Assembly: GCA_916610825.1 (NCBI GenBank)
Contig: OU744446.1
Span: 22,949,223 to 23,013,222 of the forward strand
Source: Haliclystus octoradiatus
Lineage: Eukaryota; Cnidaria; Staurozoa; Stauromedusae; Haliclystidae
Reading direction: 5' to 3'
DNA length: 64,000 nucleotides
Positions 1,943-55,200 of the stretch are shown here, in pieces (the stretch's first letter is position 1; every line of letters begins with the position of its first letter). The notes beneath the pieces are model-generated. The model saw nothing but the letters and a program-made list of their open reading frames with translations. It was not told where the DNA came from and did not search any database. Position numbers and translations under genes: made by a program.

Positions 1943-4748
1943 TTATTTTCCAGGAAGAAGGATACCATCATACTAAAAAACAATAAAAATTAAAATCAGT
2001 AAATTAAATAGCCAGGAAAGGAAATACAGAGCACATACACTAATAAATTCAAGTTGGCTTTTGTTGGGGATCTTAGGTTAAATCGTCAATTCAAATAGAC
2101 TTTTGACACACACCAAAGAGAGAGCTCGGATAGATTGATGACACATTGAACCCACTCAATGTTTTCTACAAAACTCTGAGCAGCATGTTCTCACCATCAT
2201 AAAAATATTAGCATAAATGTGATTTTCCAGCCAGTGAAGTGAGTTTTTCTTGTACGACACAAATAAATATATTTCAATACCATTAGTTTGTTAATTGATT
2301 AGAAATCAGATATAAGTCATAATGAATGCAACATGAAATTGAAAGGAAATGATCAACACTTTCAGAGTAAAAATAGAAACTGCTGAAGGTGGCTTGGTTT
2401 TTCATAGGTAAACAGTGCTTTGGTCTGCTGCGTTCCCCATCACAATGCTCATGGTTGCTACGTTTCAAAGTATGAAAGGCAGCTTATTTCAGTATTAAGT
2501 CAGCACATACCTTCTGCTGAAACCATTTCATGCATTCCTCCTTGGTAACTTTGTGTTGACATCCAACCTTTGCCTTCCTTCTGCGTCGGTATGCAGTGCG
2601 GTAGCCACGGCGACTGAGAACGACGTAGAAGTCCATACCATAAATGCCAATGCTAGGGTCATATTTAATTCCTAAATCAATATGTTCTTGGATTCCAAAG
2701 CCAAAGTTTCCAGTAGCAGAAAAGTTTCCTTTTCGCAATTCGTATTCACGTACCTGGACAAAATGATTCAAAAGTCAATTAAAACAATACAATGTAATGG
2801 CAGATTCAATAAATTTTTTAGTTCAGATTAATTTGTGATCAAGCCAAGCTTTAGCCTGTGTTACAGACCGAGATTTATTCACGAAAGAATAGGGTCTGTG
2901 TGAATTGCTTGGAATCTCTGTCCGTGCCTCGTATCAGAATAAGATTGATGTCACATAATTATGCAAGATTAAGGTGATTCTCGCCGGGATTCTCACATTA
3001 CTTTGTTCACTTCAGTTGACATGATTGCAGTAAGTTCGATTTTAGGCTTCGTAGCCATGACAATTAATTGATCGAACAGAGGTGATGAATTTATTATCTA
3101 AGAACAATAGATTTACCATGCATCGATCAGAAACTTCCGCTCTACGATTTCTGAGAGACTGGACAGAGAACTGTGCAAATCACACAGACCCTATTCTTTC
3201 GTGAATGAATCGCGGTCTGTAACGCAGACTAGCCAAGCTTATGCTTCTTAATAAAGCTACACACGTGCTGCAGGTTTAATAGTAGTATGTGATATGAGAA
3301 TTCAAGAATGACTATTTTTGTGTACGACATAGATTGGTTTTAATGTTATATCATCTACAAATTATTTGATGCATAATTCCTAATAATTGAATGCAAGCAA
3401 ATCCTTCTAGAAAATTATATCATAAATCACCCCTGAAGATCAGTGTCCAGGTCCTACCAACAAGTGAGGATGTTTTAAAGTTGGGAATCCAGGTCAAGAT
3501 CATCTATGAGATGCACATTGTAATATCTCACCTTCAATCCTTTCTCGAGGATTTCTTCAGCTTTAGGTCCTCGGACGGTGCAATGGACAGCAATTTTTTC
3601 ATTTCTTCTGATACCAAAAGATCTGACAGTGTAGCGAGCTGGAGATGAAAAAATAGACAATAAAGTTAAAAAAGCCATATTTTAGCATTCCTCAAGTTTT
3701 GAATTACCGCACATGTAATACGTGAAAAGACAAAACATGCTGTATGACAAATATCAAATCTTCTCTAAATATCATGTAAGATCATCTAAGATCATCATCC
3801 TTGTAAGAATACAAGTTTCAAGATCAGTGACTATATATACAACAAACCTTTTGAGAAAACTGGAGTTTGCCCAGTAAGAGCTTCTAACACTTTGGCAGCA
3901 CGGACCAGTCTGTCACCACTCTCGCCAACACAGACGTTGATACATAACTTTTGGATTCTCACTTCACGCATTGGGTTGACTTTTTCAGGTTTTTCATCCT
4001 TAGTTGGCTATGGGAATTAATAGAAAAATAAACGGTGAAGCAGCAATAGAGGAAATATGAATCGATAACTAGAGACGTGATGGCAGGAATTAAAAAATTA
4101 CTTGAAATATATTTTATACGTGATTAAGAATAAAAACAATGGAGCAGCTAAATTCTGTGTCCATCTTTACAATGTAATTCATTTCATGTGCTAATCTAAT
4201 CATCTTAAAAACTAGAGCTGTCACTGTGGCATATGCCATGTATGGGATATAGTCACACAAATGCAGTAGGTTTGTGGTGATAAATTCAAATGAATGGTCA
4301 CGTTTATCAAGGGAGGCATTTTATACTATATCAGTTGGCCTAGGCTAGTCATTAGATGGACTAGGGACTTATCATCTTAGGTCACAACAAATCTTGAAAC
4401 ATTCAATGGTATAAACTTCAACACATTGATATAAATCAAGTTTTGACAAAATAAGGTAAAAAAAGCCCTAGTTATTCGTATTAACTATTAGGTAAAAAGT
4501 ATTTCTCTAAAGAAACTGCAGACAATCTCAGTCTCTCAGGTCAGACTTATCACTTATGTCCGATCCCATGACGAAGAAGTCGTTTTGGAATGATTTTACT
4601 GCGATAAAGGAAATAAAACTCCAGCATAGCAAGCATATTATAATCAGCTTGCATATTATGTGGAAAAATATAAACTTTGAAATCATGCAATGGACGAATA
4701 AGCCATTGCAACAGCTAGAAGGTTGACACGTGAAAAACTTACCGCCAT
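1943..4748 (-). CDS. RPL11: 60S ribosomal protein L11 (uL5)
   Basis: Protein of the large ribosomal subunit central protuberance, which contacts 5S rRNA; in vertebrates free RPL11 also binds MDM2. Five coding exons in transcript order: 4743-4748 (ATG GCG only), 3848-4007, 3532-3638, 2511-2753, 1943-1972. All borders are GT-AG and in phase, giving 181 residues (human has 178). The match to animal RPL11 is close throughout: [60 protein letters not shown] and the C-terminal YDGILLPGK. The main difference is a more basic stretch ([16 protein letters not shown]) near residue 150. Splitting after the second codon is a frequent arrangement in ribosomal protein genes. Intron 3 carries a 379-bp MITE. 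The gene is divergent from the coiled-coil gene at 6179. Confidence 0.97.
2852..3230. mobile_element. MITE with 10-bp target duplication (Mutator-like) in RPL11 intron 3
   Basis: Inverted ends of roughly 58 bp read (A)GYCTGYGTTACAGACC and continue to ACGAAAGAATAGGGTCTGTG (left 2852-2911, right 3173-3230). Weaker similarity runs further inwards. AGCCAAGCTT is repeated exactly on both sides (2842-2851 and 3231-3240). A duplication of 9-11 bp is characteristic of Mutator-like elements. There is no coding capacity in the 379 bp. The family assignment is inferred from duplication length. Confidence 0.75.
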
Positions 4749-4766
4749 CTTGGGAAAGAGACGGTC

Positions 4767-4786
4767 GGAAAAGAGGAAGAAAGGGA
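4767..4786 (-). promoter_or_regulatory. 5' TOP-like pyrimidine tract of RPL11
   Basis: On the minus strand, 20 uninterrupted pyrimidines end about 18 nt upstream of the RPL11 ATG; a second tract (CTCTTTCCC) lies directly before the start codon. Ribosomal protein mRNAs of animals typically begin with such a terminal oligopyrimidine tract, which confers growth-dependent translation. The transcription start is presumably a C inside this tract; this is inferred, not mapped. Confidence 0.6.
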
Positions 4787-4874
4787 TGCTGGGAGTTGCA
4801 AAATTGTGCTTTCTTCGAAACAGAGGTTATATAGATGATAAATGGGAAGAGGCTCCTTCATAACCTATATGTAG

Positions 4875-5171
<297 letters not shown>

Positions 5172-5912
5172 ATATGTAGCACTGTAGTAAAAGCTTTAAT
5201 CCGTTTCACGGTGCATTTGTGGAACTTTAATAACTAATCAAAAAATTTAAATTTGAAATAGATAAAGAGGTCAGGCTGCCTGACCAGGGGTTCAAATTAA
5301 TGGAGTATGAGAGTGGTGCCTATTCCTCATCTTTAGGAGCATGATAAAACTTAAAACGAAGAATAATAATCAGCTCTTTTTACATGATAATTTATACCTT
5401 ATTGCCTTCATTGATAATTTCAATAATTGATATTAAATACAGGAGAATATATATACGATCTATCGGGACTAGAATGTGGAGTTGTGTTCCAGCAAACAGA
5501 TAGTAGAGCTCTTCTAATATCAATTTTGTCGTTAGCCGTGTCCTTATTTTGCTGCCAGTTGGAAGGTAGCTCAGAACATCATGTAACGGCTGAGGGAATC
5601 TCTTTTCGGCTCGTATATGATGTCCAATAAATTGCATTCTTTTGTGTAATTAACTGTGGTGGTGGCTGATGGCGTAAGAGCAACATCATAGTAAAGTAGT
5701 AGATAATTAGAATTGATATATTATATACTTTATGGACGTTTTAAAGCGATTCTGAAAAATTTTGAAAGAATAAGGTCCATCATATTCATATCAATGCAAT
5801 CGCTGCCACGAGCCGTCAAAGTCCAAGAAATATCAGTGACCAACAACCGACCTGGGGTCGTCATAGCATAGGCGGCACATTAATCGTGCGCATTACTTCG
5901 GTAACGTATCAT

Positions 5913-5964
5913 CAAGATATTATAATAGAACCAATAGAATAAATGGTTCTATTATAATATCTTG
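5913..5964. repeat. Perfect 21-bp inverted repeat with 10-bp loop
   Basis: A 21-bp arm (5913-5933, beginning CAAGATATTATAATAG) and its exact complement (5944-5964) are separated by 10 bases. It could form a hairpin or cruciform. It lies 215 bp upstream of the coiled-coil gene start. It could be a remnant MITE end pair; no target duplication is obvious. Confidence 0.85.
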
Positions 5965-6178
5965 GTATCATATAGTCTTATAGCGTGTGTATGAGCCTTC
6001 ATAATCTTGTTACAGACGTTACAGAGTCCGTTGCGTTGCTATGATTTAGGCGGGAAAACTGAGCCATGCTTTCACTCATGACATTACTACGAAAATTAGA
6101 TACGAAAAATGTCAACTTGTTTTCAATAAACAAATGTAATTAATTTTCGGATAAGGTCATAATTATTTATGAAATACA

Positions 6179-10447
<4,269 letters not shown>

Positions 10448-10590: not shown

Positions 10591-13500
10591 TCAAAATGAT
10601 GTTGGTTTGTTGGAAAAGTATTCAAGTGCATCGAATGCACTGTCAACACCTATGTTGTAGGTTGGATGTGTAAGTTTCTAATAAAAAAGAATGCAAACTC
10701 AAATTCGATGGAAACAACAAGCAATCAATTTTATTTGATTTGTAATGTGTTAAATTGGATTACAATTGGAATTAAAATTGTACAAATAATATTACCGGTA
10801 TCTAGTATTTGTTTATGCCTAGCTCAAATGCGTATTAGACTGGCCAAGAAGTCCATGAGAAAATGATCAAACGTTTCATATATGATTGAACAAATCCTAG
10901 CAAACAATTTTTCAGAATTTTTTCAACGTACCAGAGATTTTACTGTGACATTCAAAATGTTATATTATAATATTCCAAGTATTTCTGTTACATGAAAGTG
11001 ACTGGTTCAATTCCATGGATTATACAATTGTTGGATTTTGTGTTGAAATCAGCAAATTAATATGAACTGCTTCTGTTGATTGAATCAGTGGATATGCGGT
11101 AACAGATTCTATTATATATTAATTATTTTATTGATCAGACAAATTATGTAAATTATTTCAAATAAAGAAACAATTTCAAAAGTTGTTTGTGCAACGTGTG
11201 CTTCATTTGTAGCCTTCATTTCATTCATAATTCATGGTCTACAGTATTCAAATATCAAGGTAAATCCTCACTAGCATCATCAGTTCAGAAAATATTCAAT
11301 GAACATTCTAGCATCAACAGTTGTGTGAATAATTAATTTACGGATAATCAAGAAGGCACACATTATAATGAGTACCAACATTTCAACCTTAAAATTGGAG
11401 ATATTGATAAATTATTGTGATTTCATGTTTCAATTACTGCATTGACTTTAGTGACTTAGATCTCTATATTTCATAGCCATGCTTCTAAACTTACAAGTAA
11501 GTTATGCTTGCCACCAACAATATTTGTTTCTCTACACTCATCTCCAATAAATGTTTGTGCTACAGATAATCCACTTAGACAGTAACATGTATGGTAAAAA
11601 TCACGAGATCTGGAACACAAAATAACAAAATCTCATTAACAAGTGGAAGATCTAAAGCTAGGTCTCATATGTATGATTTAGTTTTTTATGTTGAGATCAT
11701 TGCAATTTCTACATACTTTCCAGGCTTGTCAACTAAGCCTCCTGCTGTAGATTGACAATTTAATAGTATATACTCTTGCAGTGCAGCTAAAAATAGAAAA
11801 GTAATTACGTATATAAATTGATTTGAATAAAGATCCTTAACTGGAAGCTACGACCATAGCAATTATCGTCCGCAAACAAGCACAATTGCCATTGATTGCC
11901 ATGTCAATGCTGTGAAAAGATGCAACACGTTTAATGGCTTCTGAATAAATTATGACAACCAAATATACAAATTAACTGTCATTGCATAGAGAAAGAGAAA
12001 CTGACTTTACCATACCAGCTAGGCTAATTACAGAAGAGTACAATTGAACAAATTCAGCACTTGGAAAAACAATTATTAACTCTTTATTATCAAGCGGCAA
12101 AGGGGTCAAAATGCGTCGATGCTGTGTGTGATGATTTGTCATTGTCACGCATTGTTACTAACATCTGCTTATTTTGCACATCAACTCATTATTCACACTC
12201 AACGCACCCCTTAAAAAATGGTAATCTCTCCTCTCTACGGAATTTAAATAAAAATACTACACAGTATATCGGAAAATATCAAGTACATTTAAGCAACGGG
12301 CTGGGGATACGCGTTTGAGAAAAACACATGTTGTGACGTAACACACAACTGAGTACAACACACTTTATGATGTAATACATTGCCGAGCAGAAGCAGATTG
12401 CCAGCAAGAACACGCGTCTGAGCAAAGTGCATTGCTGTGAATAATGAATTGATGTGCAGAATAAGCGGATGTTAGTGACAATATGTGACAAACCATGATA
12501 GAGTGCATCAACGCATTTTTGACCCCCACGCATCCATGCAAGCCTAAACACTCCGACACGTGCAATTGATTGCACGCCAAAATGCTTCAAAAAATATATA
12601 TATAGTTTTTTTTTTCGCAATTCAGTTTAGTGATGATTCTGATTCTGATTCTCATTTCAATTTCCTGTTTTTTGTTGTTGTTATTATTTATTATTCAGTG
12701 AACTTCAATCTATTATTATAATGATTCCAATTCAACTTGCTGGACAATTATTTAAACCAACAGACATGCTCCATTCATCGAGTTGGAATTTACAAGCAAA
12801 TGTGATGTTAAAAAGAATACATTTGTGTTGCCATGACAGCTGACAATCATGACTGACATGCCGTGACAACAAGTGTCTGATGGTGCGATATCACGCCTTG
12901 ATCATTTTTGGTGTGCGTTTTATAGCACATGTGTCATATCTATATTACAAACCATGTTACCATGCAATATTACCTTTGCCAAAACATATTTCTATTCTGG
13001 TACTGTTTTCTCAACATATATGTGTTAGTCTGGATACATGCACGAAATCTAGATTCTTATAATACTGGATATCAACAGTTTCTAAATCAGCATAGGGAAA
13101 TACATTGATAGGATTACCTTGGTCAAACATCCATGAATCTTTAGGTATGCTTTCGTCATCATACATTTGCAAAATACTATGAAGAATTGGAAATAGACCG
13201 CCTTGCCAGAAAGAATAACAGCCATCAACAAGCTTATTTGTGCGTCCCTGGAAGTAAAACAGCAAAATCACTAATCAGTGTGTTATGAATTAGTTATAAC
13301 CATCATAGACCAATCTCTGTGGGACTGTAATGAGCTGTGGAACATAACCATCTCTTCATCATTTTGGCAAATCATTTACATAAAATAACAGATGAAATCT
13401 AGCAGATGGAACTGTGCTCAAATTCAAGGTTGACAGAATGGTAAATTTTACCCTTATAATGCACATGACACTAAAAAAACTTAACAGAGATTCTGGTAGC

Positions 13501-16500
13501 TGAAGCTAGATGATGAAGAATGGTGAGAAGGATTTTTCAATTTGGACGCGTATAAGCGGTGATATTTAATGTTGAATATACCCTATTTTCGATCAGCCAC
13601 TTTTTCCAAACTCAGAATGATAGCCAACATGACAAGAGGGCTTATTATAGAAAAAAAGGCAATTCAAAACTTTAAAAAATAGAATCTTTTTTCACATGAA
13701 ATCGAAAGTTTCTAACACCCAAGTCAGCTATGCCCATACCTTTGAGACATCTTTTCTGCTTCAAACAAGTTCATTTAACCGAGAAACAGATGAGATACAA
13801 AGATATTTAGTAGTCTAAATAGCGTTTTCTGTACGAAAAGGCTCAAGCATCAAACAAACACTTGTCACAGATGGAGGTGATGTTTGTATACATAATACAG
13901 CGGTGCATAGCCTAGACAGCACTCCACGGAGGATGATTGACACATTTTTGACAGAAAAAAGTAAATCCAACAACTAAAAACCCTTGTATTTCATGTATTT
14001 CTTAAACAATTATAGTTATTTCAAGCAGAAAAGGTGTTCTAAAGGTGTGGGCATAGCTGACATAAAGGTTAGAAAATTATTTTCATTTCACACGAAAGAG
14101 ACACAACTTTTTGCAATTCTGATTTTTCCTTTTTCCTACAGTAAGCCCTCTTGCCACGACTGTCATTCCCTGAGTTTGGAAAACTGTGAATTATCGAAAA
14201 TAGCCTACTTACAGCATTAAATATTATCGCTTTAAGCGTCCACATTGAAAATCTTTTTCACCATTCTTCATCATTAATATTATCTTCAGCTACCCGAATA
14301 TGTGTTAAACTTTTTTGTGTCATTTGCACTTTAAAGTTTCATGTTTTATGTGATCAACAGACAGTATTAATTAAATAAGATTTATTAAATATTTTCTTAT
14401 GATTTCATTAAGCTTTAAACTTTATGTCACCGAAATAAATGTGTGTAGTCCTTGACTTTTGTTATATTGTTATATTCTTACTAAAATGACAAATAGAATT
14501 TTACCTGAAAGCCTCCTTCTAGTTTCATTTGACGATTTACAACCCATCTCTATCAATAAAAAAACACAATAACGGTTGGAATACTACAGACAATCAGATC
14601 AGAGAAGCATAACATGAATAAATCAATCTGATAGTTACATCACATGGATCAAACATGGGTAGTTATTAAGCACATCATATTTATGCCTAGTATCATAGCA
14701 TGTCCCTTGTGAAGTTCATGAGCAATGATGACAGTGAAATTCAGCGCTCAATAAAATGAGGACCGCAGATCAAAGGCACAGTTTGGAAACAATAGCACTA
14801 AATAAGCAAGTAGCCTAAACAACTTGCAGGCACTTTGAAAGGGGAGACTTTGGTCGCAGACACAAACATATTTTGTAGATTCCTGCCCAAAAGTTCATGA
14901 ACTGTTCATGATGTGTTTATGAACGTTTTAGTAATTTTACGTCCATGAGCTGTTCATGAAATGTTTGTGACAGTTCATGAACCTTTCATGAAAAGCTTAT
15001 GAACTGTTTATAAGGTGTAAACGAACAGTTCATTAAATACATTCATAAAACTTATGAACTGCTCATAAACAGTTCAGGCGGTTCATGGAAAGTTCATGAA
15101 CTTAGTGAGTTTTGTTGCAGAGGTCAATGTCCTTTTATGAATTCAGAGATTGGCTATGCAGAAACAGCTGCATGTTTAATTGTGTGTCTAATTAGTTTTC
15201 GAAGTCATCTCGGAACAACAAAGGGCTTTGGCCTTTGGGGTAAACAGTATGTACTATTTTATAAAACAGTAATAAAGTCGCTTCATTGAAAGTCATGTAT
15301 CATCACTTACCAGGAGCAACTTGATATTGGCACGATTTTCTTGTCCAAGAAGAGCTAATGCTGCAAAGCCACAGAATGTGTATCCACCATGAGCTTCAAG
15401 ACCTAAAGACACAATAATGCAGCTTGAAAACTATTGAAAGTTTTTTCTTTCTATCATGCAGTCAAGAGAAGATCATTGTGTCATATAGCTATGGATAAAT
15501 AATTTATGCACTTTTACATCAATTTGATCTCAAACATTTTCACAACTTTAATAAGTGGCAAAACTGCATCACAATTGAATAATATCTGCACTGGCTTTCT
15601 TGTAATTTAAATAAAGCACATAGGTAAACTGAGACTTTTTGATGCACCAATGGTAAACAACTATGTAGGCCTATTTGAATACAAAGGCTAAATTTGTGAG
15701 CACCAAAAATACAGTCCAACGTTCCTGAATCATGTTTATGGAAATTTTATGATTTTGCTCATGGAAAGGTCATGAAAAAGGGAAATGTATTTCACATAAT
15801 TATATCGTCGTCATCTTATTCTAGTTACTTTTATTTTCTGATACGATACAAAATTTTGAATACACAGCTGAATTTGGTTCAGATAAAATTGGAAAATCGG
15901 ATTATTTATAAACACCATGTGAAATGAGATATACCTGGAGCTCCACTAAATCCTCCCTCAAAAGTCTGGCAGCTGGAATAATAAAAATGTCATAAATTAC
16001 GTTACGGTTTATATGGCTCACATATGATAACATGATTGATATATTTTCCATTTCAAACATTATTTCTTTATGTTCAACACTACATTAGATATACACAGAC
16101 AGTAGCATGAAAAAATACATAAGAAGTTAATTAAGGCACCTAAAGGATTATGTCAATGTAGTTTTCATAAAGCTTCAAAAATAATCCAGTCCGAATGACT
16201 ATTCTGTGCCTAATTTGAAAATAGTGTTGCATTAATAACATCTTCTTTAAATTACTTGACCATGCAATATAATTCAATTGGTGTATTACATACGTTTTCA
16301 GCCATGCAGCCGTATTTTCAAACATTTCTTTTGTGTGAACATTTGTAAGTCTGGATGCTACAACTGCACAGTAAGCACCTCTGTAGAGAAAAATGTGATA
16401 ATTAATGTGTTCATCTATCCAATCCCTTTTCAATAGGGTAGTTCAAAAAAATCATATTGTAACTCATAAGCTATCAACCAATGCCTTCAAGTTGCCATCA

Positions 16501-19500
16501 AGTTGCAGCATTAGTGTAGTGGTTAGGGCATTGGACCTCGGCCCGCAGGGTCTTGGGTTGAATCCCTGGCAGAAGCACTATTGGTTGGCTGGCATCAGGA
16601 GAGGGCATCCGACCATAAAATGCACAAACGCTTCAAAAAATACTAATCATTTAACAAGCCAACCCGGTGAAAAAAAGCTTCAAGCTTACCCGGTTTGTGA
16701 ATAAATGACAAAAACAAAAATGATATACCGGTACCAATGATAGCCCTCAACGTTACCAGAAGCAAATAAAAAGATTGTTTTGAAAGTGCATTATGCAATT
16801 TGAGATATCAGTTACCATTATATGAACCAAACATTATGTGATTATCAAATAAAAATTGCATGAAAACCGCCTGGTATTCTTTTGAAGGCCTCACATTTCA
16901 AACACGTATACTTTTGTGGCCTTTTATGCAACTTTCGTGACATCATTTCTTTAAATAGAAACATAAAAATCACATGATTTTCAGAGGAGGTATGTCGATT
17001 TATGCAACTTGAAAGTGATTATTACACAATGTTTCAGGTGAATGTAAAGTTTATTGTGTTTAATACACAGTGTACAATAGAACAGATATCAATTTATTAA
17101 ATTAAACTTGATTTACCTGATATCAACTTCTCCATCTTCATGCATTGTAAATGCTCCATCTTTATTGTGTCGTGATAGCAGAAACCTTTGAAGCCCTTGC
17201 CTATACATTTTCAAACATTAAACAAATGTAACTGCTAACTGCAATGTTAGTCTGCTAGCTAGTTGTCTTTACAATGGGAAATTATAAAGAAATTATGTGC
17301 AACTCTTGGAGGAGCAATGTTTAAAAAATTTCCAGTGTAACTCATAAAACTAATTCTAAAGTTACATAGAACTGTACTATATGTAGGGCATCATATCCTA
17401 ATCACATACTGTAAACGTAGAGGGGATCTATCATATGATATCATGTAATCACTATGTACCTGTCAATAACCTCATATGCACCTTTGCAATGCCTACCAAG
17501 TATACATAAGGCATTTACAGAGGCATACGTTGGTGCCAGATGTGGAACTTGACCTGGTCCGCCTGGATAATAACAAAATAATAGCAAAACTAGATCTAAA
17601 CCAATTGGAAATTATTAATTAAAAAATGTTAATAATAACATATTGAAGGAAAAACAACAATAATTGCTTATGAACTGTTTATATGGAGTTTATGAACAGT
17701 TTATGAAAATTGGTCATTTAACGTTCATGATCTGTTTATGAAATGTTTATAAGGTGTTCATGAACTGTTCATGAGCAGTTCATAACAGTTCATGAACTCA
17801 ACTAATTTTTTCGCAGGGGCAAACCCACTATAAAGACCTATTGTCGAAGCAGTGATGTATTTGATAAACCTTCTGGACATTGGAAAATTAATTATTTGAG
17901 GTATAATGCAGCCGTCTGTTTGAGTACAAGTGAAAATTATGAACATTAAGTTCTTTACTCCATTCAACATTGAAAACTTGTTCAAATTATTCAAGGGCTT
18001 TAGCAAAGAATAGCTTTAAAGGTTTTAAAAACAAGGTTGCAAATAAGCAGGAATTCTATTTATCTGAATTTTATTAATTGCAGGCATATTACACCGTATA
18101 GTTTGTCTGGTCCAGGGAGCATGATATGATGATAGTCAAATCTTTTAGGGTCATTTTGAAATTTTTGTTTTTGAATATTTTCGATCTGAAAATGATGTAG
18201 AATTGTTTGGTATAAAGTACTAGGCCTACAGTAGTATGTTAATATTTTTATGTCAAAATAAAATATGTATTCTTTAAAAGTTACGTGTTGAGATTTTCTA
18301 CTGATTATTGTAGCTTGACATATTTCCTTGGATTCTACAGTGTGCTGACAGAGAAGAAACAAAAATGCTTTTTTATCAGATGTCGATAAACTTTCCAAAA
18401 TAGCAGAAGCAAGGAGAGTTTAAAATTGAAAAACCATACATTTTTGTACATGTACAATTTTTAATAAATTTTCTCCAAGGATTGACCTATATTAGTATAC
18501 TGAATAATTCTCCATCATTTTCAGACCAAAATTTCTAGGTCAAAAATTTTAAAGTGACAGTAAAAGATTTGACTACCATATCTCTATCTGGTGAGGACTA
18601 ATTGTGGTCTAACTAAGTTTGTTTAGGCAGAATAAAACCATGACAAAGACATGTGCAACAACATACCAGCAAATCCTCCATCCTTGTGTTGGCATTTCCC
18701 AAGGAATTCTGCAATCCTGCAACACATATTATTAGTTCTTTAAAGCTGCAATATAGTCAAACCGTTGAACTCCTTTGATAAAGGCTATCCTTTTTAAATG
18801 CCAAACATTGTTCAATATCCCTATTGACGTCTGACATCTTCCATTTTCCATACAAACTTTTATATTCCTATGTAAATGTTGCTAAATAAATATTTCGCTG
18901 AATATCCAATTTTTCATCTGCACCAGTAGAGATGGATACAAGTATTTTCAAAGCTGTTATTCTATGTAACAATCTAAAACTCTTGAACAGCTGAAGATAC
19001 GCAATAGTTAAGAGTTAAACCTTGTAACAAAGATAGGGTCTTAGTTTACTGATTAAAATAGACCAGCATGTGATAGATCTATCCCCTGCAACAAACAGTT
19101 CAGGGGTATAGACCTAGTTAAGACTACTGTAACACAATTTTGTCAGTTTTACTTGATTGCTGTTTCTTCTGGGATCGGTTCGTCCAGCAGTTCGAGAGAA
19201 TGAAGAATCCAATAACAGAGCCATGGTCGGCTTGCATCAAGGCACTATAAAGGAACACAGAATCAACACAAAATCATTTTAAGTCATTATTTACCAATCC
19301 TGTATACCTGTCCTCCCTTAAAGTGTATACACCAAATATTGTGAGATTGCTTCCTTTGAGCCATGATTACCTCATCAAAAAAATACATTCAAAGTTACGA
19401 TTTTGTGCCTCATTCTTTTTCAGCACTACATAGTAATCATTTTACTCTCAATAAGAGGGTTTACAAGGCAAAACTCTAAGCATCAAATCAGGCACCACCT

Positions 19501-22500
19501 TCATGAACACTTTAAAGACGGGCTGTATCGCTATACTTGGATCCCAAGTCCTAAAAAAATATAACCCAACATCTTGAGGTTAGCCTTGAAACGATCATTC
19601 CGAGAGCAGTTTGCTATTTGGTTAGTTTGTCTTTGTGTGATCTCCAGTGACTCTTCCTTATGATTAGTGGCATTCTTTGTGTAGCACCTGTGTTGGGCTT
19701 TAGAGGAAAGGCACATTTCTATAATACAATGTGATCTCATATACTATTATTCTAGTCCAGAAACCTGATGTTTTATAGAACCATGGTTAATATACCACCC
19801 CTGCAAAAGGTTAAGCATTTATATGTTTTTATGGAATTTTCATGAAATTTCGTTCAATTGTTGAAGCCTCATGAACAGTTCATGAATAGTTCACCAACAT
19901 TCCATGACAATTAAAAGCCTTAATTTATTCAGGATGATTGAATTCATTGCGTGTGAAGCACAGCAAGATTGTCAAGAGAAAAAACATATGTCTGTTTTAT
20001 AATTATAAATGTATGACAAAAAACGTCAATAAAAGTGCTCAACTGGTTAATTATGAATAATAATAATAATTTAATCCGTCCGCCTAATTATAAATCAACC
20101 GTCAGAGTGTCCTTACGCGAAACTCAGAGTAGCAGACTAAACTCGTGACCTTTTGTCAGTTTTATATCTATATAGAATGAGACAGAAATGAGTGATTGGA
20201 AATTTTGAATAAATAAAAAAGATAATTAATATGAGCAGATAGCTACTACTCGTTTGCCGTTAACTTACTTCATAAGAACATGATAAATGATGCAGACCTT
20301 TCTTTAAATACGATAAATGTTTCTCGCGATTCAATTGGATCCTATGAAATTAGAGAATGAGAATTGTATTTTCAATACTGAGTGTTTAGCTTGCAATCCA
20401 AGAGCCACAAGACAAAAATTGACATTAGCAACACCATTCCAATTGAAAAATTCCAATTTGTACACTGTACTGTGAAATGTCATACAGAATAGAGGTACAA
20501 AAGTCTATGTGTTTTCTTTTGAAATTTGTAGCATTCTTTATTTAGAAAAAACATTTTAAAACCAAGGGCTTTGCTTGACGTATTGATTGTGAAATGTTTG
20601 AATTTGATAAGTGGATCTATAGGCTACGAAATAAAAATAGGAATGGAGCCACAATGACTTGTTTGTATCCTAATGCGAACTGACATTTTACCCTTTACAA
20701 ATAACAAATTTACAAATTTAATTTACAAATAAAAGTTACCCTTTACAAAAAGCCACAGATTTACTCCATTCAGCAGTTCTTATTTCAAATGTCTGTGTTC
20801 AGTAATTCAAATTTCATAACAACTCTATTTTAAGACAATAAATAAAACATGTGATAAACTTTAAACACAATTTTCCCTGTGGCTTCTCGATGATTTAGCA
20901 TAGGATGTATATGTTGAGATTATTCTGGTATTCCAATCGATTGGCTACCTACATCCACAAGGGTGTTTTGCGAACAAAATAGATAGTTATACTAAATATT
21001 TAACGTTTATCCTATTTTAAATTTCTTTCAACTCTATTTGTATGTGTGCCTGTCCCGAATCAATAATGCTGTTGACAGCATCTAGCGTGATACTTTATAT
21101 CTTATTCGAAAGCCTGAATTTTGTAGACGGTTCTTAGAATTCACTGATGTTGATTTCACTTACATCGACTGGTTCTTAGTGGATTTCCTTTGCTGACAAT
21201 AGCTTATGTTGCGTATATTGATACCAAATGAAGTCTTCCCAGACAAACTATGCTGTGTTTTTATCCATAGTCATTCCATCACATCATTATAACAACGGCT
21301 GTTAGAATGTTGAGTAGAGCCGACAAGTTAAAAGCTGTAGGCCTATATTTCAATCATAATTATGTTTGAAAGATAATTTTAATGCAGCCATTAGCAAAAA
21401 CTTTTTATAAAATTTTGGAGTTCAAGCATTTTTACTCCTATGCTGTTGCTTCCATCATTTGTCATACTCGTTGTATTTGTCAAAAATTGAGATTTCAGGC
21501 AATCGGATTGACTGATCATAAATCTCGCTTTGATATACCGCAATTTGACGAGCGGTAAGCGAGACTTATTCCCTTCGTACAGCGTTGTGCAGGATTTTGC
21601 ACAACGGCATTCTGTTTGATCATATTGTTCTGACAAATTATCACGCATTTGATGTACGCGGAAAGACGGGGTCCAACATTACGTAAATTAAGATGCAACA
21701 TGCAAGCCAAAATAAATGATATAAATCTATATATGGAAACTATGGTTATTAAATCAAGTCAATTAACTGATGCTTGTCAAAACTTACAAACTTATTTCAA
21801 CATCATCATTCAAAATACAGATGGCGAAATTATCTGTAAATGTTTTTACCCTTCAGGATTGTTTAATATTGTATCATTGTGAATGCTTTGGGTTACCATC
21901 GAAAAATTCAGCAGTTCTACGTTGTGTACAAGAGCAAGGGAAAGATTTATTCAGAATATAGCAACCTTCCTTGTGTAATGTTTATGAAGTGCCAAAAGGC
22001 TCACTACTACTTCTTGTTCGGCGCGGTACTTGTTTATGAGATCGCGTTACTTGTTCGGAGATCCCGTTACTTCTTTCAGAATTCGCGCTACTTGTTTGGA
22101 GATCCCGTTACTTGTTTTTGAGATCGCCCTACATGTTCGGAAATCCCGTCACTTGTTTAGAGATCCCGTCACTTGTGAAATTTTAAGATAATTATAGCCG
22201 TGACAAGTGCGGTTGACCGTGATTTTTTTCAAAATCTGAATCTAGATCGCAGATCGTAAGGCTTTGGTAAAAATATAACACGGGGAATAATGTACCAAAA
22301 ATATTAATTTACAATAGCTTGTGTAATCATTTTTGTTTAATGGTTATAATTAAAGGTCATATTTGTACGTTTATTGCATATTTCAATAACGAATAATGTA
22401 TTATTATTTAGTATAATCTAATAATTTATAAATGACAGTCGACAATTTCTAAAACTACAATATTGTATTAAGATTCGATGGAATGAAAGTTTGAATGACT

Positions 22501-25500
22501 TTTGAATTTACTCAGTATCTGCATACAAGTCTTACAATTGTAAAACCTTGTCTTATAACTTTATAGTGAATATATACTCCGAAACGACACAACAACTTCA
22601 AGTAAACAAAATGATTGAAAGGAGAGTTTGTAGGCCTACAGGAAATGGAAAATATTCTAGATTGAGTGATTGTCATATACCAGTTAATTAATATAAGTCT
22701 CATAACGAGTACAAATATTTTAAGGACAACCTAGCTACAACAGTACACTGCACGTAGCTGATTCTTACTTCCCGCATATTACCCCCATATATAGTAAATT
22801 AAAATTAAAATTATTCATATCAGTGGCAAACGAAAAGAATAAATAATTCTACTCAATTTGGACATTTTGATCAATTGATTTTTTTTTCTATACAGCAACG
22901 CCATATGAAACTAATTTGGCTCTATACTAGTAGACATAATATTTCATCGCAATAAAATTAGTATATACTAGTACAGTAGCATATTACATTTAAATTATTG
23001 TTTGTGAGTATACGTATTCGATTCGATTATTGTCAGTCAGTCCTAATTAAATGTAAATGCAATCAGTGAAAACAGAAACAGCTAAACGTATCATGCTAAA
23101 TAATCGATAAACGCACGGACACGATGACGCGACGCGATCGCATACAAGTACCGCGCACAAGTAGTAGTGAGCCTTTTCGCCATACGTGCCAAAAGGCTCA
23201 CTGCTTCGGCACTTGTTTAACGAGATCGCGTTACTTGTCTGACGTTCCCGTCACTTATTTCGGAGATCGCGTTACTTGTCTGGAGTTCCCGTCACTTATT
23301 TTGGAGATCGCGTTACTATCATCAGAGAGTCATAGTTATAGTTTTTGTCAAATCATTTTATACTGTTATAATTGTAAATTCTACACATTGTATATTTTAT
23401 TAAATAGTGTAATAGTGAAAGTTCATGTTTATTATTAATACATTTAAACATACAAATCAAAATCATATTATATCTTAACAATTATTTTATGTGTATTCTT
23501 AATCAGTCCTGTGAAATAAAGTGATATAAAACTTATCAGGATAATTTGGAAATACACCCCAAATAAACATAGTGGAAACATAATGAAGTTTTGATTTTAT
23601 CTTTATGTTTGACTTATATTAATTAACTGGTATATGACAATCACTCAATCTAGAATATTTTCCATTTCCTGTAAAAACTCTCCTTTCAATCATTTTGTTT
23701 ACTTGAAGTTGTTGTGTCGTTTCGGAGTATTATTCACTAAAGTTATAAGACAAGTTGTTATAATTGTAAGACTTGTATGCAGATACTGAGTAAATTCGAA
23801 AGTCATTCAAACTTTCATTCCATCGAATCTAAATACAATATTGTAGTTTTAGAAATTGTCGACTGTCATTTATAAATTATTAGATTATACTAAATAATAA
23901 TACATTATTCGTTATTGAAATATGCAACAAACGTACAAACATGACCTTTAATGAATTATAACCATTAAACAAAAATGATTACACAAGCTATTGTAAATTA
24001 ATATTTTTGGTACATTATTCCCTGTGTTATATTTTTACCAAAGCCTTACGATCTGCGATCTAGATTCAGATTTTGAAAAAAATCACGGTCAACCGCACTT
24101 GTCACGGCTATAATTATCTTAAAATTTCACAAGTGACGGGATCTCTAAACAAGTGACGGGATGTCCGAACATGTAGGGCGATCTCAAAAACAAGTAACGG
24201 GATCTCCAAACAAGTAGCGCGAATTCTGAAAGAAGTAACGGGATCTCCGAACAAGTAACGCGATCTCATAAACAAGTACCGCGCCGAACAAGAAGTAGTA
24301 GTGAGCCTTTTGGCACTTCATAAATGTTTATCATTGCCACAATGAATCATATTTCAACCTGCATTTTGATCTCCAACGAGCGCTCAAAAAGTTGCAGCAA
24401 ACAGCAGCATTCGCTAAATTAATGACTCGCCAGAATCAGTAAGTTAGAATGATAAAATCAGTTTTTCAGTTTAATTAGCTCCAATACCCTGAAATATACA
24501 TAGCCTACTATAAGTGACTCAAGCCACTATTTCTGTCAAATAATTTGACAGCTTTTAAAATTTCAGGCTCTTATATATTTTACGATTCGTTCGCTGTTGA
24601 CTGTTGACACCCTGGAAAACTCAGATAAAACTATGTCATTGACGATATTTTGATGGCGGTTTCTTTGTTTTTTGAAACAATAGAATTGCCAAAGGACACA
24701 CAAGTCTCACTTACCGACATATCAAAATCGTCATGGTAAAAGTGAGACTTGGGCAAGTCAAGCAATCGGAAAGACAACCTGGCTATAATTTGCAATTGGG
24801 ATATTTCAGATTATGTGAACCGCAAATTTTAAATGTGTAATGCATGTAATCTGAAAATTACACTCTCTTCTCTCTTTTAAAAACAATTTGCAGCATTTGG
24901 AAAATCAACAGTTATGCTGCTTCTATTTAAGGTTGTATTATACTACACTCATTAATTAACTACATATTTTACATAATTCTATCATAACCCATCCTATTGA
25001 ATGTATTAGGATGGTCCTGACTCATGTTCACAACAACACAATGTACAAACCTTGCATCTAAGTCCATGTAACTTTGATACTGTAGATAATTGCTGAGAAC
25101 AGTCTGTTCCACCTTTTTCTGATGCAAAGAATACAAATGATACATTATTACCAATATATACACATTTTCAATACTTGATAAGCACATTTTCAAATTTAAT
25201 TAATACCAATTCAGCACATTCTGGACGTACTGAAAATCAACCTTTCCAGTACATACAGTTTCAATATGTATAGCTGCAAAAGTACTTAAAGCATAGGCAC
25301 TTTACAAATTCATAGTGTAGGTGTTCACACAGTTCAACGGGATTACGCTCTAGGGTCTGAGATAAAACCCATGGGCCTGGTAAACTGCATATAGCATAGC
25401 CTAGTAAAGTTAGCAAAGCAATATTTTTCTCAATACAGTCCTAATATTATGGATAATGTATGCCTAAGCTCTTTATAACTGACACAGTTGGAATGTCATG

Positions 25501-34200: not shown

Positions 34201-37200
34201 TCAGTTGGCTTCTGAGAAGAAAAATAAGATCAAATATATAGATTCTGCAATTCTTCTATTTCTCAGATATAAAACTATCATGGGTCAGGTCACAACTCGG
34301 ACCATAACCAGCATGATTCCAACTAGAACATGTGACAAACCACGTCGTGCATTTGTTATCGGGGAAGGGCTTGTATTTGCCCCAACACCACATCTATTAG
34401 TTTGATATGTGCAGATGGACTTACTCCGCATTCTGGATTGCTGACTTGACCATCTTGTTGTATCATCCATTCGTCAGCAAGATGAGCATCACGGGCAAAT
34501 TGTAAAACCTCAAAATCTGAAAATCAAAACATTCCGACGATTGTATGACAGATATATCATATCGGTTGACATTTTCGTCATCTGTGCTTCTGTAAACTTC
34601 AGCAGTTTCATAAATCCTAAGTTGGGGATCCCTCATAATCTGATGAAAGCGTCAATCACAGTTTGAAAATGCAGCCTACATTTGAGGATAACAATGTCTA
34701 CAGAATCTTTAGGGTCGACCTGTAATCCGTAAAAATTCTAAATTTTTAGTCCAACAAATCCTATCTGATATCCTACAAATGTGATGATTCTGATTGGTTC
34801 CTATGTTATTAATTAACCTACCAAGTTGTAAGTCTTCCCAATGAGTTTCCCACAACGAGTCAAGTGATTGTTTGTCACTCAGCAGCTGATCCACTTTTTG
34901 TTTAATCTGGTTGAGGAAAAAAAGGTAAAATATGGTTATTTACAGTAGTTGAATACAGGAATTAGAAGATCAGAGCACAATAAAGTTTTGACATATCTCA
35001 TTCCTTTGACAGCTGAGTGGGATGGATTTCGCACAGAAACGCCCCAAAGCTCAACCACTCTACGGCGGAACAGACATCACGGAACGAGCACAGTACAAAA
35101 CACGGCAAAAATATTTTTGATTTGCCATGTGCTCCAACAATCACTTGAAATTTACTTTACTAGGAATATCTCAGTCGTTTGCACAATCACCTTCAATCTA
35201 GTAACTCTCACCTCATCCGATGCATAATGGTTAGCAGCTATCATTTTTTCTGCGCTTTCTGCAACGTTATTGAATTTCTCTTCTTTCGAATCAATCTCCT
35301 TCTTTCGATCTTGATGGTTCTTCATGAGCGATTCACAACCACTGATATCCCTAAAATTTAAAATAATAATTTCCATTGTACTGATGAAAATGTTTTGACA
35401 TTGAAACATGGACGTGAAACATAACTGTACAAACACAGCATACGTTGCAATATTATGTGTATAAGCAAATCATGAAATTGGAAATATTGACCACTACCAA
35501 CAGGTGACCTTAATATAGAGGTTAAACTCGACAACCTTGAGTTTGTCCGTACCTTGGTCGTTTATCCATTTCAATCTGACTTCTCATTTCAATGATCCAT
35601 AATTGTAAATCATTAATAAGCATGAGAAGTCTTTGGAATCCATCTGATTCACCCAATTTTGATGTTCTCAAACCAACGGAGCGTAGCAATGCGTTCCATG
35701 CATCAACTACTTCTGTTTCTTTATCAGTGATCTCTTCTGATTTGTCACCGGCATACTGTGGTGTTAATTCAGTTGAAAATTGTTGAATTGATTTCACTTG
35801 ATATTCAAGTGGTTGGAGGTCAGCTTCAAAGGCTTTGTGATGTCGTTTCAAAGCAAACACACTTTGATGGTCACGTCCTAGTTCTGTTGAGAGTTGCTTT
35901 TCTTTCTCCTATAAGTACAGAAAATGAAATGAGAATACAAAACTATGCAAGCACAAAAAAGATAAATCATTGAAGCCCAGTGTACTATAGAGAGTAGTGA
36001 TTATGTCACAAGATGTGTCCCAAACCGCATTGCAGGGCAAAAAATTTGTAATCACATTCATAACATGAGTCGGTTGATAATTTCTTGCACCAAAGGAAAA
36101 GAGAGACTCAAAGAGAATTCAAAATGAAGTATTTGTGTGATTCAATGCAAACATTTTACTGAGTAAAGTAGAACAACATTTCGCTTTCCTCTTGTACCAT
36201 GTTATGGATTGTTGTAGAGTATATTCTGACTTGTAAAAATAATAACAATAATTCCCTTTTTAACCATGCAGAAGGTGGACGATAATAGGTGACTGATTCT
36301 CTCTTGATTTTAGTAACGTAAAATTAAAACTCAAATATATTGTCAATAGACGTTCTCTTCTCTTCACATCATCAGCTTTTCTTTACTTACAAATGTGCTT
36401 TTGTAGAGGATAGTGGTGTTACACGTTGAAACTATTTTTTATTGTTATTGCACTCATCAATAAAAATCATTTCTATAGTACAATGCATTTCTTACTGAAA
36501 TAAATCAAATCATACCTGGATCATTCCAAGAAGGTCTTTAGCTTCCTGGAAAAACTTATGGTACTCATGAGCAGATTCCAGGACCTATAAATAATTGTAT
36601 AAAACAAATTTAATGCAAGGTCGTTTGAGAATCTATTAATTAAAAGTCTGTTGTGGACGGATCCTGAGACAGATGCTGATTGTATAGAGGCTACTATCAT
36701 AAGATATTTGACTGCGTATGCAACAATACATAATAAAAGCTACCAGTAACACTCGAAAAAGTGTTTAATTTACCTGTCGTCTTGTAACAATTGCTTCTAG
36801 AAGGTTCTCCCATGCTTCATTGAGTCCGTCTTTCCATTCAGAAATAGTAGCTGCATCTGTATGACCAGAATCAATCAATTGATTTGTCATCTGATTGACA
36901 GCAGCCACTCTATCTTTGCCTGTTGATGTTGTTTCAAGTGCCATGCGTTCAAAATTCTCTTGCAACATCTAAGATAATAAAAAAGATATCTTGTTACCAC
37001 GAACATTGACAACAGCTTTATTTAACTTTTATTTGATTTGATACGAGTGACCAAGATCTAAATAATCAATAAACATGCTGTACCTGTACATGGTCGAAAT
37101 CTTCACCGTTTTCTTGAGAACTGAAAATGACATCCATTTCAGCAATCCAAGCCTCAAGATCGTCAACCTAAACATTGAATTTAAAATTTGCTTCAAAAGT

Positions 37201-52200: not shown

Positions 52201-55200
52201 TCAAACTCACTATCTTCCTCTGGTTCCAATTCTAGGAATGAAGCAGCTCCAGTATTAGCATGTTCAACTCTTTCTGCCTGTGCAGCAACATCAGCTTCGA
52301 CAAGTGAATGCTTCTGTAGGAGATCTTCAACATCAAAGAAATGTTTACCATAATCATCTGATGTGAGAACAACCTGTTATGATTAAAGAAAACATATATA
52401 GTTATAAATGGTCACCTCTGTATATAGATTCATTCATTCAACTAAAATACATTCAAGTCATAAATGGCTTGAATTCAACACATCTTTAAGTGGCTTCAAG
52501 AATCATTTGTATCCACTATTATGCAAAGAAGCAAAAAATATGATGTCTACAGTCTTATTCAATTAACTTTTAATGATCACCCTCGTGAAAAGATTAGCTG
52601 ATTCACAAACTCTTCATAAACATTTTATAAACAGTTCATGAACGTTAAATTGTCCAACTTTCATGAACAGTTCATGGACGTTAGATTTCCCAATTTTCAT
52701 GAACAGTTCATGAAAACTAGGCCATTTAACGTTCATGAACTGTTTTCACAGATGCATAAACTACTCCCAGTAAAGTGAATCCTCAAAAATATTTACCTTT
52801 GTATCTTCAATCCAGTTGATGATATAAATCATTTCCTGGAAAACTTTATATAACTGGTGATGTTTTCTGAGACGTGAGCTACGATGTTTCAGAAGCTCAA
52901 GTAATTGTTCCCAAAGTTTTAGTACTTGGTCTTTCTTTTGGACAATGGCTGGTGTTGCGTGATAATTACCTGATTCAAGCTCTGTTGCAACAACTTCAAC
53001 TGCATTTATTCTTTCAACATAAGCCTATGTCAAATGGAAATATAAATTCATAATCAACCACAATATTCTATTTCTAAGATACCCGTTGGAGCTAATATTT
53101 GATCATGTGTGCATATTGTAGTTATTTCACATCTGAATGGGGCTACATACCAATTTAGACAAAATTAAAATCTAGCCATTTTTACTACGAGCAAGATCTA
53201 AATTCAGTTCTTGTTCCGTATGTTTTCTTTGTATTTGGGGCACTCTGTATTTGCCATGAAGCATATCCGTCTTGGGACTACCATGTATAGGAGCATCATG
53301 GGATGCGCGGCCAACCTCTTATCCGTGGAATAGGGTAAGTCTTGTGATCCAGATAGGGTGTTGAAATCAGGTTTGCACTTATTAGCTAGCTAGTAAGTCA
53401 TCACAAGCATTTAAGAAGTTATAGTTTTTGCTACGAGTTTTTAGCAATTGTTGTTACGATATCAATTTTAGTTTTAAATTGAGAACTATATTGCCCATTA
53501 TCTACACATTTTTCATATCGAATTTCCCACTCTCCCCACAATTTAATAGGTTTGTATAAACTGAGATTTTAGGATTCTTAGTTTAATGTGATTATATATT
53601 CTAATTAATTTTCCATTGATTATCAGTATGAAGGTGCTTGGTTGGAGATTGGAGACAGGGTGGCACGAAGTGGCTACCTGACAACTAGGAGATGAGTAAT
53701 TCCCACCAACCAAGAACCAATGCCAAAACCCCACCAATGGTGAGGATTTTAATTGAATAGTAATATAAATCATACCTTGATATCAGTCTCAATCGCTTCA
53801 TGTTTCTTAACAGATGCTTCAACTGCGTTAAGGTTGGTACCAAAATTATCTTGTGATAACAAACGCTGATTTTCTATTAACCATGTTTCTCGCAATGCAG
53901 CCTGTGAAATTCAAATGGGAGATATTGTGAAGACAGTTAGCAACACGGAATCATGAAGTGCAGTACACAATATAATGCATGTCACAAGACAACCATACTT
54001 AATTGTACATACCTTCCGGTGAAATCTTGAAGCCAATTGCTCTAATCGTTCTTGTCTGAAATTACACACATATTTCATACAAAAGTTATAATGTACCAGC
54101 AACAACATTGACATTAGCATTAAATCTGCCTTAAACAGTATTGATTAAAAAATTTCTTATAAAACATTTTAGAATGAAGGATAGTGAAAAGAAACTACAA
54201 GTAGTTGTTGGTGAAATATTTCAATATAATTCAATTTTCTGAATGATATTGAAACGTTTTCAACAACAACTACTTGTTATCGCTACCTTCATACCTTCAT
54301 TTAAAAATTAAATAAATATTATTACATAATTAACAATCTCATTTATATTCACCTGATAAGCTCTTCTCTGAGAGCAACTTCACGAGCATGTTCACTCTCC
54401 TCTAAAGTATCCCACGCCTTGAAAATGAATTTAAAATTAATTAGAGAATGAAATTTTCTTAATCATACAGTCAATCAGTTCGTATAAAATTACATGATTT
54501 AAATCTATTATTCCTAAATTTTATTTTAAAGTGCACATGACACCAAAATTTTTTTACGGAATCGAGTAGCCCATGCAAGATAAATAGGAATGGCAACAAT
54601 AATTTGTCGATTTGGATTCTTGTAAGCTGAGTTATTTAATGTTGAAAGTACCATAAATCAGCAAAAGACTTTGCTATTTTTCCATAGTGGGCTCTCTTGT
54701 CATTTCAACATGAGTTCCGACATTTGAAGGAGCACTATTTTTGAAATATGGTATTTTCAAGAGTCCAAATAGAGAAATTATCGTCGCCATTCCTATTTAC
54801 TTTGCATGGTCTACTTGATTCGGAAAAAATATTTTTAGTGTCATGTGCACTTTAATGGGTTTTGATAGAAAAAGATTCAAAAATCTGTGGATACTTCCAT
54901 TATTGTTAATTGTTAATATTTCTAACGATAGTAACTCTATAAATATAAGTTCTTGTAAACAATTTAGTCATCTTAATAATGATCATTAGTCAAGATTGAA
55001 AAGTTGATCAATCAAATATTACGTTGTTGTTTTCTGTCAAATGTATGTCTCAGAAGCTTATGTTTAATACATTTTATTATGCACTGGTATTCCAATCAGA
55101 AACTTCTCTATTCTGATTACACAAATCAAGATGGTGCAAGGTTATTTCCACTACAAAGTTTTAATGCCTTCTTTCAGAAACTGCTGATCATAACAAGTTA

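Follow-up and report, generated by a model that had tools for sequence, protein, structure and literature searches.

A candidate IS3EU/GingerRoot-type transposon with long, foldback-like terminal inverted repeats in the genome of Haliclystus octoradiatus

Complete families of the IS3EU superfamily of DNA transposons are described as always having TA..TA ends and usually a 6-bp target-site duplication (TSD), and their transposase as being without HHCC and as carrying the first catalytic aspartate 100–300 residues into the protein (PMC10045372). Fungal members are reported with a 6-bp TSD and ends of the form TAYGG..CCRTA (PMC12730594). For Styx, whose transposase is related to that of IS3EU, movement with 6-bp TSDs was observed in a living pedigree and is regarded by its authors as likely non-replicative; one of the mobilised copies had a non-functional integrase (PMC10853768). 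Long foldback-like terminal inverted repeats (TIRs) occur in different transposon superfamilies (PMC3688188). Here, we describe an element of 2,340 bp at positions 21983–24322 of a 64,000-nucleotide stretch of the 262-Mb H. octoradiatus genome (C1:22949223-23013222, hereafter the window), which is probably a non-autonomous, internally deleted DNA transposon of the IS3EU/GingerRoot type with TIRs of about 1.8 kb. As a complete transposase of the family was not found, this placement relies on the ends, the TSD and a first exon.

Termini, target sites and coding relatives

The element had been described in an earlier note, made from the window sequence alone, as a foldback transposon flanked by a candidate 6-bp duplication, AATGTT, and a genome-wide search with its terminus had been proposed there. 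A 23-base terminus, allowing at most two mismatches, was found 144 times in the genome (72 per strand) and its reversed-pattern control not once, so that consistent ends exist. Among 100 termini listed of the 144, 66 form 33 neighbouring convergent pairs with spans of 759–9,824 bp. The 27 loci that were fetched and the window represent the best-scoring 40 of 203 candidates; 22 of these loci are two-ended and, with the window, make up a set of 23 copies, L035, L038, L040, L046 and L047 being omitted from the TSD count (partner end missing or cut). Identical, flush 6-bp TSDs border 20 of the 23 copies, and the flanking 6-mers were identical between copies in 0 of 506 comparisons, which establishes AATGTT as a real TSD and 6 bp as the duplication length over many copies. 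No strong consensus was recognised among the 20 TSDs. Left ends start with TA in 22 of 23 copies and right ends finish with TA in all 23; the left end of L031 is short by 10 bp.

The two-ended copies are spread over eight contigs and their flanks differ. When the flanks of the window element were joined with a single AATGTT, 40 scored element-free places (of 224 candidates) were obtained, all aligning across the junction with 92–95% identity and with lengths of 347–358 bp, judged from coordinates alone, against a query of 354 bp. As the joined flanks match many element-free places, the window element is inserted into a copy of another interspersed repeat (window 21800–21982 and 24329–24499, not part of the element), the empty form of which is common. 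The 6-bp TSD is thus documented both by the copies and by the empty site. At C4:9303745-9528725, at least four copies lie within about 225 kb as two pairs, the members of each pair being 11–12 kb apart, which suggests local spread or segmental duplication.

Coding sequences were found in longer copies. L034 (4,967 bp, TSD TGAGAC) contains an open stretch of 149 amino acids on the minus strand (3092–3541), which begins about 2.03 kb inside the right end, reads inwards from the TIR and ends with PNALW, followed by GTAAGA, by eye a possible splice donor. It shares 35% identity over 125 amino acids with a 520-residue open reading frame (ORF) of L051, which matches PF24764 with an E value of 3.3e-74 and shows weak matches to rve and helix-turn-helix (HTH) domains. 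The residues following the PNALW-equivalent point in L051 are HLDGHH, where the first catalytic aspartate was placed by eye; the catalytic residues assigned in this way are D260, D319 and E354, with 34 residues between the last two. HHCC was not seen, by eye, in the 149-residue exon of L034, which covers the first exon only. We read the open stretch of L034 as the apparent exon 1 of an integrase-type transposase with PF24764.

In L042 (8,246 bp, TSD GGCTTT), the first 55 residues of this exon are present at 84% identity and read inwards from the left TIR (ATG at 1,479), while a second gene of three open stretches reads inwards from the right TIR (an ATG at 1,903). Its stretch of 233 amino acids also occurs in L046 (97%) and at C2:37336908 (92%); Pfam gave no significant match for the second gene or for the ORFs at L046 3730–5766. 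A P/Galileo- or Mutator-type transposase, which the earlier note had proposed to look for in full copies, did not appear: no THAP, P-type or Mutator-like element (MULE) match was obtained in 10 open stretches scanned from L034, L042 and L046, in which a complete transposase was not seen; the exon found is of the PF24764 type. A genome search with the L034 exon yielded eight matches from 13 scored candidates, namely L034, L042 and six at 33–37%, so that no complete transposase of the family was among them. Six loci with other PF24764-type genes (L050–L055) have no real similarity to the family TIR (best 39 bp, E 8e-4, in L053), and a search of the PDB with L051 gave no match at E 0.1. L051 and L052, located on different contigs and each with an open frame of 520 residues, show 99.5% identity throughout their 3,363 bp; their element ends therefore lie farther out, and they represent another element of the PF24764 kind, one that is perhaps recently active. 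L046 also contains, at 2505–7353, a nested second transposon of 4.85 kb with the TIR TAGTCCAGGAGCCCC, a 3-bp duplication CTT and ORFs that carry a LHALTGCDSTSSFKGKGK motif, which we take to be perhaps an Academ element. In the joined sequence of L046 and L056, Gag/protease-like retroelement frames were recognised by eye at 12684–13999, to the right of the second gene.

Architecture of the window element and its deletion subfamily

The features of the window element are as follows (window coordinates).

21977..21982, plus strand: left TSD AATGTT (flank comparison; empty copies of the host repeat)
21983..24322, no strand: whole element, 2,340 bp, TATGAAGTGCC...GGCACTTCATA (arm pairing, flush duplication)
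21983..22699, plus strand: left arm, outer part of the left TIR (arm pairing, TIR mapping)
22008..22176, plus strand: left outer subterminal array of units of about 20 bp, consensus GAGATCCCGTTACTTGTTCG, cores every 19–21 bp
22700..23126, plus strand: middle part of the long left TIR (TIR mapping)
23127..23184, plus strand: internal right-type end R', terminating ...GAGCCTTTTCGCCATA (inner limit approximate)
23185..23186, no strand: CG separating the two internal ends
23187..23317, plus strand: internal left-type end L', including a separate 41-bp array
23318..23604, plus strand: inner part of the left TIR (TIR mapping)
23605..23610, no strand: junction of the internal deletion, filled by the six bases ATGTTT (recurring in 15 of 23 copies)
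23611..24322, minus strand: right arm, the right TIR reduced to its outer 712 bp (arm pairing, TIR mapping)
24129..24284, minus strand: right-arm outer subterminal array (tandem-repeat detection)
24323..24328, plus strand: right TSD AATGTT (flank comparison)

The flush AATGTT pair encloses the termini TATGAAG...CTTCATA. The arms at 21983–22699 and 23611–24322 pair in inverted orientation in segments of 371 nt (99%), 215 nt (97%), 59 nt (98%) and 63 nt (100%), with an overall identity of 0.986 over 708 aligned columns, so that the inverted arms, formerly estimated at about 700 bp, are confirmed at about 715 bp. The tandem iterations of about 20 bp, reported for the outer arm, are present in both: units of 20/41 bp were detected independently in each outer arm and once more in the spacer. 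In the left arm, unit cores (at most one mismatch) start at element positions 27, 46, 67, 87, 108, 128, 149, 169 and 189 (zero-based), and their spacing of 19–21 bp corresponds to about two helical turns. Long, internally repetitive TIRs thus make up most of the element, as in the foldback structural class.

The part between the arms had been taken for an inner unique domain and spacer, a view that did not hold. The whole element maps on the long TIR as TIR 1–1633, six filler bases and TIR 706–1, and about 905 of the 911 bp of the spacer are the continuation of one TIR, within which lie two degenerate element ends and a further array. The deletion junction of the window element recurs in 15 of 23 copies with a filler that varies at one base, and the same junction with near-identical filler makes it most likely that these 15 copies descend from one deletion. 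The window copy therefore belongs to an amplified internal-deletion subfamily, which was presumably mobilised in trans; such mobilisation is reasonable because a defective Styx copy was mobilised. L022, L024 and L031 retain about 1.5 kb of TIR on each side (about 1.25 kb on the left of L031), L025, L044 and L045 retain more, and L034 and L042 retain genes or parts of genes. In L042, pairing of the arms reaches about 1.81 kb inwards of the right end, with a gap on the left side; the family TIR is estimated at about 1.8 kb. For the middle of the left TIR (22721–23200), 59 candidate places were found genome-wide, of which 40 were scored.

In each of the 23 two-ended copies, at least one pair of degenerate internal ends is present whose tips face each other across 2 bp. 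The form CGCCATA-CG-TATCGCC occurs in L025, L034, L044 and L045, and CGCCATA-CG-TGCC variants in the window class, L022, L024, L031 and the gene-bearing L042. In the fetched copies, L' shares 78–83% identity with the outer end, and the R' stretch has a 57-bp match in L046. Solo elements ending at R' were considered, as the middle-region matches at C7:12641152 and C7:529879 stop there; these candidates were rejected as small deletions that extend from R' into the array of L' (L057 and L058, 100 bases each), the L' tip being deleted in these two partly read copies.

Elsewhere in the window, spectrin-repeat and calponin-homology exons on the minus strand at 35525–61368 probably represent a beta-spectrin gene. 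Two separate arrays of GTTCATGAAC-like palindromic units are located at 17723–17798 and 52623–52714, and long TAA/AAT runs at 4927–5117 and 7760–7943.

Alternative interpretations and a possible mechanism

Several observations weigh against the IS3EU assignment. The role of PF24764 as the IS3EU core is itself deduced from its kinship to rve, the missing HHCC and the ends of the family; the outer ends read TATGAAG rather than the fungal TAYGG, with which the internal R' alone agrees, reading TATGG from its tip; three of the 23 copies (L026, L031 and L033) are without a matching TSD; the choice of the best-scoring 40 of 203 candidates favours well-preserved ends; and in the family copies no full catalytic core was found but exon 1 only, complete in L034 and truncated in L042. 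This last finding would also agree with the idea that the ends belong to another superfamily with 6-bp TSDs, such as Dada or Polinton, and that the L034 exon is a captured passenger, since non-autonomous elements can capture sequence. The ends of Polintons are AG..CT, unlike those of the window family. The exons of L034 and L042 both sit just inside the TIR and point inwards, and the TA..TA termini fit IS3EU as described (PMC10045372), which leaves the passenger reading improbable.

About equally doubtful is homogenisation within the element, by which the arms of each copy would convert one another. The identity between the two arms of a copy is slightly above the median identity to other copies (0.986 versus 0.978 for the window element; 0.973 versus 0.966 as the mean of 23 copies), but just two of 23 copies show a value above the best match that both arms have with other copies, in a test that favours the other copies, their value being the highest among as many as 44 arms. 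As the remaining 21 copies show no such excess, the similarity of the arms is best read, from these comparisons, as that of a young family rather than the product of special conversion. Of the earlier proposal that the element was inserted, or its arms homogenised, recently, the young age of the family is retained and arm-specific homogenisation is not. Across 42 arms, with L034 and L042 excluded, nucleotide diversity is 0.0120 in the array (positions 1–190), below the 0.0219 of the inner part (201–712; p = 0.008 by a site permutation that takes no account of linkage and relatedness). The low value fits a needed recognition region, although some inner 40-bp blocks are equally low.

That the element is a P- or Mutator-group foldback moved by a transposase of that kind is very unlikely. 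The earlier note had likened the element to FB/Galileo and to sea urchin TU elements, the latter having outer tandem units and an inner domain. The outward architecture is indeed the same, and the TIRs of Galileo hold several transposase binding sites (PMC3688188); kinship is not supported, since 20 of 23 copies have a TSD of 6 bp instead of 7 bp as in Galileo (PMC3573991) or about 9 bp as in the Mutator-type foldbacks FB and Tm1 (mostly 9 bp in Tm1; PMC3169594), and the coding relative is of the integrase type. A segmental or assembly palindrome, which symmetry alone would permit, can practically be dismissed in view of the fixed ends, the distinct TSDs, the differing flanks on eight contigs and the 40 scored empty places, all within one assembly, and the earlier recognition of a genuine foldback-type element at 21983–24322 stands.

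For the IS3EU-type transposon favoured here, we propose that an IS3EU transposase from a complete copy elsewhere would bind the 20-bp units, spaced by roughly two helical turns, via its N-terminal HTH, would cut at the TA ends and would join the element to the target across a 6-bp staggered cut. The gene-less form would go back to a single event of faulty gap repair following excision, with subsequent amplification in trans; the mirrored shape would reflect long TIRs and the loss of the middle, with no separate foldback mechanism. Two neighbouring insertions are a poor fit for the abutted internal ends, as 6 bp would be expected between the ends and 2 bp are seen; the ends may derive from a dimer or joined-end intermediate or from a decayed double insertion. 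IS3 elements transpose by a copy-out/paste-in route. It is conceivable, if rather improbable, that the tips CGCCATA-CG-TATCGCC are a fossil joined-end intermediate (a circle junction or head-to-tail dimer), that IS3EU at times follows an IS3-like copy-out/paste-in route and that the family was built from such a dimer.

Comparison with described elements

With IS3EU/GingerRoot, the window family shares TA..TA termini and the 6-bp TSD. Styx of Zymoseptoria likewise has a 6-bp TSD and a defective copy that was mobilised, and its IS3EU ancestor is thought to have encoded two proteins; the TIR of Styx, in contrast, is given as 36 bp (PMC10853768), compared with about 1.8 kb including tandem units in the window family. 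The TIRs of the fungal TET+ IS3EU elements are stated to be longer than 30 bp (PMC12730594), against about 1.8 kb with abutted internal ends here. Galileo, a member of the P superfamily, resembles the window family in its long, internally repetitive TIRs and is reported to comprise several structural classes, including copies consisting of two TIRs, and to have multiple transposase binding sites in the TIRs (PMC3688188), but differs by its 7-bp TSD (PMC3573991) and its THAP/P transposase. Tm1 and other Mutator-type foldbacks are similar in having composite TIRs with short tandem repeats, groups resembling miniature inverted-repeat transposable elements and no TSD consensus, whereas Tm1 deviates in its TSD of mostly 9 bp, its units of 13–15 bp and its Mutator-related transposase (PMC3169594). 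No description of a foldback IS3EU element was found in the literature searched (foldback, nonautonomous, long or subterminal TIR), a search outside Repbase, which lists many IS3EU families. If the placement holds, an IS3EU family with TIRs of about 1.8 kb, phased subterminal units, inward-reading genes and a traceable deletion subfamily is added, and IS3EU joins the superfamilies with long foldback-like TIRs.

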